Part shown: positions 7,316 to 37,601 of the stretch, piece after piece
Layout: every line of letters begins with the position of its first letter
How positions within the stretch are numbered: position 1 is the first letter of the stretch
Assembly (NCBI RefSeq): GCF_010470675.1
Contig: NZ_VOIQ01000012.1
Span: forward strand, 62,001 to 126,000
Direction: 5' to 3'
From: Desulfovibrio sp. JC010
Lineage (GTDB): Bacteria; Desulfobacterota; Desulfovibrionia; Desulfovibrionales; Desulfovibrionaceae
DNA length: 64,000 nucleotides
The notes under the pieces: generated by a model
The model's input: the letters and a program-made list of their open reading frames with translations, nothing else
Database searches by the model: none
Told to the model about the DNA's origin: nothing
Program-made: the position numbers and the translations under genes

Positions 7316-7450
7316 GAGGGGAACTTAGCATCACAGTCCTTGATCCGGCAAATTGTATTAGATGTAATTTGGCGGTATTCATCCAAAATACTGATTGCCT
7401 TTCGGGAAACCTTTGCTAAATCTTGATCATACCATCTGCGGAGGACTTCC

Positions 7451-8068
7451 ATGAAAACGATCAAAGTTACCATATTTTCTGATTATATCTGACCTTACTG
7501 CTACATCGGCAAAGGTATTGTCGAAAAGTTGCAGCAGGAATTCACGGGCGAATTAATCATTGAAGATGAATGGCTGCCCTATGAAATCCATCCGGATACC
7601 CCGGCAGAGGGTGTGCGGCTGGATGAATACTTTCCCGGCATGAACACGGCGTTGTTTTTCGCGGAGATCAACCAGCGCGCGAAACGTTACGGTCTTTTTT
7701 TCGGTCCGCAGGAAGTGATGAGCAATTCCCGGCTTGCGCTCATGGGCGGTGAGTTCGCCAAAGAACATGGTTGCTACCATGAATATCACGAAGCGGTATT
7801 CAAATCGTTTTTCTCCGACTGCAAAAATATCGGCCATATGGATGTGCTGCTGGAAGCAGCCCGCCAATGCGGGCTTGATGAACAGGCTTTCAGGGAAGCC
7901 CTTGAGCAGTCTGTTTATCTGGATAAATTGAAAGATACCACCCGGCAGGCCCGCGATAAATGGGTTAATGCCGCACCGACTTTTGTAATCGAAGGACACG
8001 GTAATGTCACCGGAGCCGCATCCATGGACAGTTTCCGGGAGATTTTCAGTAAACTGCGGGACGCATAA
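7451..8068 (+). CDS. FrnE/DsbA-like thiol oxidoreductase, apparent selenoprotein (TGA = Sec14)
   Basis: The open frame from the ATG at 7451 (ribosome site GGAGGA at 7440-7445) meets one in-frame TGA at 7490-7492, then stays open to 8068, giving 205 residues. Around the TGA the product reads SDYI-U-PYCYIGKG. FrnE-like DsbA proteins have SDxxCPWCYIGK here, so the TGA falls exactly on the first redox-active residue of the CxxC, giving a UxxC site (U14, C17). Downstream features fit the family: helical insertion, cis-Pro region VNAAPTFVI near the C terminus, normal length. There is no signal peptide, so it acts in the cytoplasm. A hairpin right after the TGA resembles a bacterial SECIS. Without readthrough the first in-frame start is internal and would lose the active site. 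The alternative is a pseudogene with a nonsense mutation, which I think unlikely. Confidence 0.9.
7490..7523 (+). promoter_or_regulatory. SECIS-like stem-loop directing Sec insertion
   Basis: After the TGA (7490-7492), CGGCAA (7507-7512) pairs with TTGTCG (7518-7523) including one G-U, closing a 5-base loop AGGTA with the GGU found in bacterial SECIS apical loops. The upper stem begins 14 nt after the TGA, near the 11 nt of Escherichia coli fdhF. An outer CTGCT/AGCAG pairing (from 7498 and 7531) could extend the stem. Pairing was done by eye. Confidence 0.7.
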
Positions 8069-8115
8069 AATCTTAGCGATATCCTTTCACAGTAGATTCA
8101 CACTCGGCATGCCAA

Positions 8116-8146
8116 GGTCCGTTCTGTACTGGAGCGGACTTTTTTA
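8116..8146 (+). terminator. Terminator after the selenoprotein gene
   Basis: GTCCG-TTC (8117-8125) pairs imperfectly with GGAGCGGAC (8131-8139), and TTTTTT follows directly. It lies about 50 bases after the stop. Confidence 0.7.
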
Positions 8147-8609: not shown

Positions 8610-9719
8610 ATGGAAAGACGCGAATTTTTGAAAATGGGTATTGTTGCCGGGGCCGCTGTGGCAGCCGCTTCCATGCCTGCTATGGCCGAGGCATCCTACA
8701 CTGAGTTCACTATCGAAGACTGCATGAATCTCACTCCGCAGCAGATGGCGGAAAATTCCGGCGCTGTCATGGAGTCATGGAAATATATCCAGCGTCAGGC
8801 CGGAAGCATCAAGAATCCCAAGCTGCGTGAAGCCGTGCAGGGGATTATTGAAAATCCCGCGCCCAAGCTCATGTCTGTTGTGACCGGGCGTAAGAAAGCA
8901 GTATACAAAGAACTTGAAAAGAACGGCTGGCTCAAGGGTGTTTCCTACGAAGCCTTCCTTCCTGAAAACGGTTCCGTTAAAAAAGCCAACCAGCCTTTCT
9001 ACACCGCACCCGGCAGCGGTTACTCCAGCCACCACAGTTATCCCGGTGGTTTGGCCACTCACACAGCCCTGAACGTTGAAATGTCTCTGGCCCTTTACGA
9101 CAACTATGACAAAATTTACGGTTTCAATCTTGACCGCGATGTTGTTGTTGCCGCCCAGATCCTGCACGACCTGCACAAACCGTGGGTTTTTCAGTGGCAG
9201 AAAGACGGCTCCAGCCGCAATGAGAACAAGCTTGCCGGAACCGGTGAACATCACGTCCTCGGTGTAGCCGAGTCCATCGTTCGCGGTCTTTCCGCTGATG
9301 TTTGTGTGGCACAGGCCTGCGCCCACAACCATCCCGGTTTTTCCAAGGATGAGGCTGGTCCGGTGCGCTGGCTTAAAGCTGCGGCCATCATCGCTGATGT
9401 TGATCCGGTTAAATACGGACTGCTTGCTGCTGACGGCAAGACCCTGCCTCTGCAGCGCAGCATGGAAGCTTTTGTCACCCACCTCGGCGACCACGACTGG
9501 GTACTGACCGTTCCCGCTGCCAAGTGGCTCATCCCGGCCATGGAAGAAATTGCCATGCAGGATTACGGTATGAGCAAGTCCGACCTCAAGTCTGCTAAGT
9601 TCTATGCCTTCCGCAATACTGTTTTCAGTCAGGCCACCATTATGACCCTTTACCACCTCATGCAGCACGATGGTAAAGAGGCCCTGCGCAAGCAGGTTCA
9701 GGCTATTGTGAAAGCCTAA
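8610..9719 (+). CDS. Tat-exported HD-domain (YhaM-like) protein
   Basis: A 369-residue protein starting behind AAGGAG. The N terminus is a twin-arginine signal: RREFLKMG, a weakly hydrophobic Ala-rich stretch, then AMA-EA with likely cleavage near residue 26. The mature protein carries an HD-superfamily pattern: SHHSYPGGLATH (140-151), ILHDLHK (184-190, the HD pair His186-Asp187), EHHVLG (213-218) and AHNHPG (238-243). The HHxYxGGLxxHT start is typical of the YhaM/HD metal phosphohydrolase group, which act in the cytoplasm on nucleotides or RNA. An exported member folded with its metals before Tat transport is unusual. Substrate unknown; periplasmic nucleotide or phosphoester hydrolysis is inference. 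Confidence 0.8.
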   Translation: MERREFLKMGIVAGAAVAAASMPAMAEASYTEFTIEDCMNLTPQQMAENSGAVMESWKYIQRQAGSIKNPKLREAVQGIIENPAPKLMSVVTGRKKAVYKELEKNGWLKGVSYEAFLPENGSVKKANQPFYTAPGSGYSSHHSYPGGLATHTALNVEMSLALYDNYDKIYGFNLDRDVVVAAQILHDLHKPWVFQWQKDGSSRNENKLAGTGEHHVLGVAESIVRGLSADVCVAQACAHNHPGFSKDEAGPVRWLKAAAIIADVDPVKYGLLAADGKTLPLQRSMEAFVTHLGDHDWVLTVPAAKWLIPAMEEIAMQDYGMSKSDLKSAKFYAFRNTVFSQATIMTLYHLMQHDGKEALRKQVQAIVKA

Positions 9720-35775: not shown

Positions 35776-37601
35776 AAATCCTCTGTTTGCATTTCAATTA
35801 AGGATGCTTCCATGGCACGGGCAATCTCCGCGGCCTTCCTGTAATCGTATCCGCCTATGGCCGTGATCAGTAAATTCATTTCCGGGATCAATGCTTGCGG
35901 CCAGTTCAATTTTTTGATGGAAAGACTTTTCTCCCTGCATTTCAGCGGATCGGCCTTATTCAGGGATTCTATGATATCGGCCAGCGCACTTTGAAGTTCG
36001 TTCACCGTTGCGGAAGAAACATTTTGTTTGCCGCCGGAAGAGTCCGGGGAAATATTTTCTTTCGGAATTTCTTTCTGCACGACTTCAGTTTTATTTAAAA
36101 TTGATTCTGCATGACCGTTGTTTTCCAATCCGTTCTTATCAATCGGCAGATAGACGAAGAAAGTCGATCCATGTCCTTCAGTGCTGACAAAGGATATCAA
36201 TCCGTCCATTGCCTCCACCATCTGCTTAACCAGCGAGAGACCGATTCCGGCCCCTTCGATTTCCCTGCTGTCGGCGGACAGCCTTGAAAAGGGCTTGAAA
36301 AGCTCTGCTTTCTTCTTTGTGGGGATACCTATGCCGGTGTCTTTTACCCTGATGATAACCTGACCGTTGTGAGCCCGTGCAGTTATGGTTACGCTGCCTT
36401 TTTCCCGGTTGTATTTTACCGCATTGGAAAGAAGGTTCAGCACAATCTGTTTGAACCTGATTGCGTCTACAAATACAGGGGGCAGGTCTTCCGGGGTTTT
36501 ATCCAGAACTTCTACAACCTTTGTTCTCGCTAGAGAACTGATAATGGAAATGCAGGTCTCGACCGTTTCCTTAACGCTGACAGGGCGCATGACGAAATTC
36601 ATGGATTCGGAGTCCATTATGGAAAAGTCCAGAATGTCGTTAACCATGTCCAGAAGGTGTATTCCGGATTTCTTGATGTGTTTTATCTGCCCCATCTGAG
36701 TTGGAGAAAGAGAGGAAGAGTCGGGTTTTAGGAGCAGGTCGGAAAAGCCGATAATGGAATTGAGCGGTGTGCGAAGTTCATGACTCATCCTGCTGATGAA
36801 CATAAGCTTTGCATGGTCATCTTTGTTTGCATCATTCAGTGCCCGGGCGAGCTGGGTTTTGGCTTTTATTAGTTCGGAAATATCTACAAAAGTCTCCAGA
36901 TAATATTTTCTTCCGGCACGGGTCATGGTTGCAATGCTTTTTTGCACTACAAGGCCGCTGGGAAGGGTGCGTACTTCATTTAAATCCGGGGTTTCTGTTT
37001 CTGCAATGGGACATTGCCCTTCTTTTGCATGGCAGACCAGGTCAAAACATTTTTGACCGGGGATATCTTCCCAATGTTCGCCGATCATTTGGGCTGCCGC
37101 TTTGTTTATGTCCATTATGGTATGTGTCTCCGCATCAATGATCACAACCCCGGTAGGAATCAGGTGGAGTACTGTGTCCGCATATTGTTTCAGCTCTTCA
37201 ATGGTTGATTGCGCTTTTTGCAGGGCGTGCTGTTTCAGTCCGGCCTCAACAGCCTGAATTAATTGGCTCGGAGTGCATGGCTTGGTCAGGAAGCGGAATA
37301 CCGCCCCGTCATTCAGGGCCTTGATTGCGGCATCCATGTCCGCATTACCGGTCAGGATCATTAAGACCGATTCCGGGGAAAGTCTGCCAGCTGCTTCCAG
37401 AAAGGAAAAACCATCCATTAACGGCATTTTCAGGTCGGAAATAATTACTGCATACGGTCCTTCCAGCTCTACTTTATGCAGACCTTCTTCCGGACCGAGG
37501 GCTGTCTCAAAATTAAATTGGCGGAGCAGGCCAGCCTTGAACGTATTCAAAATGCTGACTTCATCATCGACCAGAAGTACCTTTCTCTCGTCTAAAATCA
37601 T
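35772..37601 (-). CDS. Receiver-PAS-histidine kinase protein with C-terminal helical tail
   Basis: A 609-residue protein started at the ATG at 37601 (AAAGGGG upstream; an ATG at 37619 is alternative). The receiver covers about 5-125 (Asp56 in [13 protein letters not shown], Lys108), PAS about 135-245 with a Cys-bearing loop ([13 protein letters not shown]), then HisKA with His274 ([14 protein letters not shown]), an ATPase with DTGIGIP and GAGIGLS, and a tail of about 120 residues (490-609). The end of the tail ([10 protein letters not shown] ... [14 protein letters not shown]) resembles the helical domains that close hybrid kinases but shows no HPt histidine. It overlaps the next REC-kinase gene by 4 bases. 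Confidence 0.9.

Follow-up and report, generated by a model that had tools for sequence, protein, structure and literature searches.

The window, by which we mean the whole 64,000-nucleotide stretch of DNA analysed here, carries a forward-strand frame of 205 residues with a single internal TGA and a TAA end (Table 1). Its translation is MKTIKVTIFSDYI*PYCYIGKG...RDA*. A preliminary description of this DNA had the frame open from a well-placed ATG through one TGA to position 8068, which the translation and the GGAGG upstream of the ATG bear out. It had also put the TGA at the first redox cysteine of a CPxC motif. Residue 14 does begin a UPYC motif, and the cysteines of Cys-type homologues align there. 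The N-terminal strand of the family, said to be preserved 5' of the TGA, was recovered both as the IFSDY found in all homologues and as a strand at residues 2-10 of the structural model.

The same description held that standard annotation would truncate the gene and lose its active site. This was indeed the case, as standard ORF calling listed just a 179-aa fragment (7529-8068) with a TTG start and the active site missing. We rejected an internal start at the TTG at 7529, because every homologue keeps IFSDY 5' of the TGA and a protein begun there would lack the active site.

Table 1. Positions of the gene, its active-site codons and the associated RNA signals in the window
Feature	Position	Strand	Basis
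Probable ribosome-binding site GGAGG, six bases 5' of ATG	7440..7444	+	Sequence
Predicted selenoprotein gene, 205-residue FrnE-type DsbA-family thiol-disulfide oxidoreductase	7451..8068	+	Translation; PF01323; nearest solved relative FrnE
In-frame TGA, predicted to encode selenocysteine as residue 14, which opens the U-P-Y-C active site	7490..7492	+	Homologues with TGA/TGC/TGT
Predicted bacterial SECIS	7490..7538	+	Fold MFE -15.5 kcal/mol, z -2.5; conservation; rules of PMC13188914
TGC for resolving cysteine Cys17 of UPYC	7499..7501	+	Invariant in 33/33 aligned proteins
Predicted SECIS upper stem arms UCGGCAA and UUGUCGA	7506-7512 and 7518-7524	+	RNA fold from UGA
Predicted SECIS apical loop AGGUA	7513-7517	+	RNA fold from UGA
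CCG for Pro176, likely cis-proline of thioredoxin fold	7976..7978	+	33/33 aligned proteins; model
Stop codon TAA	8066-8068	+	Translation
Intrinsic-terminator-like hairpin, 13 pairs, then T-rich tail	8114..8142	+	Consensus match only

The upstream neighbour encodes an iron-containing alcohol dehydrogenase and lies in the opposite orientation. The hairpin beyond the stop codon suggests that the transcript ends there and, taken with this divergent neighbour, indicates that the selenoprotein gene is probably transcribed alone. Downstream gene order is common to three genomes of the genus, and the immediate neighbours vary outside it. Functional linkage by neighbours was considered and set aside, because the context gives no substrate and the neighbours differ outside the genus. 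Further downstream, the protein encoded at 8610-9719 matched a Tat signal weakly and showed no further Pfam domain; the gene order here is kept in the three genus genomes. At nine loci of other genera (L093, L095, L097-L101, L103 and L104), an asparaginase-like gene, so named by eye from the start of its sequence, lies directly 3' in the same direction, some 640 bases past the anchor; it is absent from this position in the window's genus.

Family, fold and proposed function

Read through the TGA, the protein matched PF01323 (DSBA) over residues 6-197, a span that includes the TGA (E 3.3e-29, 102.5 bits), and the gene was the genome's best match to this domain, with one TGA inside. The read-through protein passed no NCBIfam model. 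We rejected membership of the DsbG-like/Rcas_1661-family (seleno)lipoproteins, NF041057, because the protein scored 36.9 bits where the curated cut-off is 190. These are likewise UxxC selenoproteins with a thioredoxin-like domain, but they are lipoproteins, whereas the window protein has no export signal, judged from the first strand beginning at residue 2 in both sequence and model.

An AlphaFold2 model built from a 16-row alignment (mean pLDDT 96.3, pTM 0.91) put helix 1 at residues 15-30, with residue 14 where it begins, and a further strand at 177-180, immediately after Pro176. Its place before this strand makes Pro176 the likely cis-proline. Two features of the FrnE subfamily, a [C/U]PxC where helix 1 begins and a proline conserved ahead of the next strand, are both present, as UPYC at 14-17 and the invariant Pro176. 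The closest solved structure, by sequence and by fold, was FrnE of Deinococcus radiodurans, which gave the best PDB match (5co3, Foldseek E 1.4e-14, TMq 0.87, rmsd 2.3, with Foldseek and AlphaFold treating Sec as Cys) and on which the sequence search agreed (5cnw, phmmer E 1.8e-16).

The D. radiodurans protein (DR_0659; PDB 5cnw/5co3/5xwh) shares with the window protein the DsbA-family thioredoxin fold with a helical insert, a CPxC-type site and a predicted cytoplasmic location. It differs in having Cys for Sec, in its greater length and in a C-terminal CXXXXC, and is ~26% identical. That motif is absent from the window protein, which has no Cys in its last 60 residues; CXXXXC occurs in many FrnE proteins but not in those of D. 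maricopensis and S. roseofulvus (PMC8945050), and so does not define the subfamily. SCO1869 of Streptomyces coelicolor (PDB 3gl5), a putative DsbA oxidoreductase, also belongs to this family and has its fold (TMq 0.85, phmmer 3.4e-10), but is of the Cys type and 24% identical.

FrnE proteins have been described as DsbA-family thiol oxidoreductases with a predicted cytoplasmic location, and the Deinococcus frnE mutant shows cadmium and diamide sensitivity (PMC8945050). The window gene very probably encodes a cytoplasmic, Sec-containing thiol-disulfide oxidoreductase of the FrnE subfamily. Its function is read from that of the FrnE family, about whose substrates little is known. Judging by the motif, the fold and the Cys homologues, Sec14 of UPYC would make the attack, with its selenolate reacting with a partner's disulfide or another form of its oxidised sulfur, and Cys17 would resolve the mixed selenide-sulfide. 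By analogy with Deinococcus FrnE, the most likely job would be disulfide reduction or isomerisation under oxidative or metal stress, in the cytoplasm since there is no signal peptide.

We consider it unlikely, though still worth weighing, that this Sec protein has another main role, whether peroxidase-like, in metal or metalloid handling, or akin to kappa-class GST or HCCA isomerase. The fold does match the last two of these enzymes (TMq about 0.66-0.76), and resistance to metals or metalloids has been linked to some prokaryotic selenoproteins (PMC13188914). However, FrnE was a far better match in both sequence and fold, the UxxC with its resolving Cys is invariant, as in dithiol-disulfide enzymes, and no recognisable metal-resistance gene adjoins the selenoprotein gene in the window.

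The window protein resembles the DsbA-like selenoprotein of COG2761/PF01323 in its Pfam domain, its UxxC motif and a bacterial SECIS directly downstream, a likeness of domain and motif descriptions that leaves apart whether the two are the very same subfamily or sisters. COG2761 we take to be the FrnE COG. Nine COG2761 DsbA-like selenoprotein sequences were reported from the Sargasso Sea in 2005 (PMC1088965), a 'DSBA-like' selenoprotein is on the list for Desulfovibrio desulfuricans (PMC1794560), and a 2026 inventory names 'DsbA-like protein form 1', PF01323 with UxxC (PMC13188914), the combination that the read-through protein carries. A literature search pairing 'selenoprotein' with 'FrnE' found nothing relevant, the family being filed under DsbA-like/COG2761. 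The window gene adds a member to a DsbA-like UxxC selenoprotein family known since 2005 and is not a new kind.

The predicted hairpin after the UGA and the probable decoding of that codon

Bacterial SECIS elements have an upper stem of 4-16 bp and a loop of 3-9 nt, lie 16-37 nt after the UGA, and carry a G within the first two positions of the apical loop (PMC13188914). The hairpin predicted here agrees with this consensus, with an upper stem of 7 bp, a loop of AGGUA and a distance of 20 nt from the UGA. Since the region also codes for a conserved peptide, we tested for constraint beyond the protein by synonymous recoding of the same peptides in 2000 trials. All six core stem pairs were kept in 23/23 family Sec rows, which share ancestry and are not 23 independent events, against a recoded null with a mean of 1.5 and a maximum of 7. 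Among 54 conserved degenerate codon columns, the least variable in the Sec rows were GGC20, GTC24 and ATT23, all of them in the stem.

The proportion of paired cells was 96% across 45 distinct Sec sequences versus 61% in 21 Cys sequences. The stem was degraded in most Cys versions, with all six pairs kept in only two of the 21. Two-sided pair changes in the Sec rows comprised G-C to A-U in eight, C-G to U-A in seven and A-U to G-C in two, and compensatory changes are present in the predicted stem of distant Sec versions. Conservation of the predicted hairpin goes further than the protein alone would require. Some distant Sec homologues took a different fold in isolation and fitted the simple SECIS model more poorly.

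The genome that carries the window (4.39 Mb, 99.96% complete) was searched for selA, selB, selC and selD, which the preliminary description had expected elsewhere in it, and all four were found. SelA (E 6.4e-184), SelB (E 3.2e-117, 392 bits) and SelD (E 3.7e-99) scored above their curated cut-offs, and selC, the tRNA-Sec gene, reached 82.5 bits against a gathering score of 47; selA and selB share one contig, ~1.6 kb apart. The SelD gene (L024, G000:C6:28687-29610, minus strand) itself has an in-frame TGA and reads AAGUAAKIAP, in which GUAAKIAP is the site where SelD classically carries Sec. One in-frame TGA each was also seen in two formate dehydrogenase alpha genes (G000:C13:25498-28530 and C7:51320-54328). 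Thus, with SelA, SelB, tRNA-Sec and SelD present and TGA codons within SelD and the formate dehydrogenases, the sequence evidence indicates that this organism decodes UGA as Sec. A codon-usage scan of the window for further selenoprotein genes gave weak candidates at 35796 (minus strand) and 51320 (plus strand) with unconvincing translations; the scan says little, because it did not list the gene at 7451-8068 either.

With a SECIS that is conserved and machinery that lacks no component, the UGA would be read as Sec14 and not as a stop, the hairpin just 3' of it recruiting SelB and Sec-tRNA(Sec). Read-through to some other residue, by near-cognate suppression or a reassigned UGA, we judge very improbable, as the Sec machinery is complete, the bacterial SECIS is conserved, and the homologous alternative is always Cys and never Trp, Arg or Gly.

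Selenocysteine and cysteine across homologues

A search of 149 genomes of the family returned two homologues from the same genus, one 84% identical with TGA and one 78% identical without a stop, together with many others that are 39-48% identical and contain a single TGA. A class-wide search added further homologues. The codon aligned to the TGA was TGA at 27/40 homologous loci, TGC at 8/40, TGT at 5/40 and any other codon at 0/40, in a tally that includes three loci from other lineages. A phylum-wide search added 29 loci, 21 with TGA and eight with Cys. The 78% identical homologue has TGC at this position. The preliminary description had reasoned that Cys should occupy the TGA position in relatives lacking Sec, and that random codons or further frame breaks would speak against its reading. 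Cys does fill the position in those relatives, only TGA, TGC or TGT were seen, and neither a random codon nor an extra frame break occurred in any homologue examined. Residues invariant in 33 aligned family proteins included S10, D11, U/C14, P15, C17, G20, W41, E45, H47, P48, N92, E101, A103, H113, P176 and F178.

That the gene is an ordinary FrnE gene of the Cys type, in which the TGA is a true stop, a pseudogene lesion or a misread TGC/TGT, as the TGC of a same-genus orthologue and the single base separating TGA from TGC/TGT might suggest, has next to no probability and was ruled out by the TGA in dozens of genomes (27/40 and 21/29 loci of different genomes, with no other lesion), the constraint on the hairpin beyond the protein, and selA in 25/26 other TGA-form genomes. 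One draft genome that is 94% complete (G204) has a TGA homologue (L106) and no selA match, possibly an assembly gap.

Most of the close relatives in the sample have the Sec form, and the family has exchanged Sec and Cys several times. On a maximum-likelihood tree of 39 proteins, which takes in some lineages outside the family, the Sec/Cys label needs nine changes, at least six of them forced by well-supported branches; the direction of each switch is one that we infer. One Cys group (L076/L080/L082/L085) is nested in Sec lineages and has lost stem pairs. In L030 (G129:C1:694635-695246), a Cys orthologue from the window's genus, TGC replaces TGA and all six SECIS stem pairs are intact; its neighbours are those of the window (syntenic), and its genome has selA. 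The TGC codon, the intact stem and the shared neighbours point to a recent Sec-to-Cys change in L030, and its hairpin is probably a fossil SECIS left by that replacement.

Since selA was present in all ten Cys-form genomes checked, switches between Sec and Cys were not forced by loss of decoding. We hold the evidence evenly poised on a wider claim, that the family is a natural experiment in which FrnE has repeatedly exchanged Sec and Cys while the sampled members kept the machinery, at least once so recently that a fossil SECIS remains, and in which the switches are driven by the enzyme's own selenium benefit or cost and not by lost decoding.

Gene calling that treats TGA only as a stop drops this enzyme's active site across many sulfate reducers and their relatives, and the redox inventories of these anaerobes would therefore be wrong at this locus. 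Genomes that are otherwise alike, among them a syntenic set from a single genus, differ in having the Sec or the Cys form, which offers a direct test of what a FrnE/DsbA enzyme gains from selenium and of how Sec is lost while its machinery stays. Added interest comes from how widely the Sec form occurs in the phylum and from the repeated Sec/Cys exchange with its probable fossil SECIS.

A more distant Sec subfamily (L136-L139, L141, L142, L106 and L107) has a UPWCY motif. Its SECIS core is different (for example UCAGUA...UAUUGA) and covaries with the core of the close family, and its RNA often folds to another minimum-energy structure.
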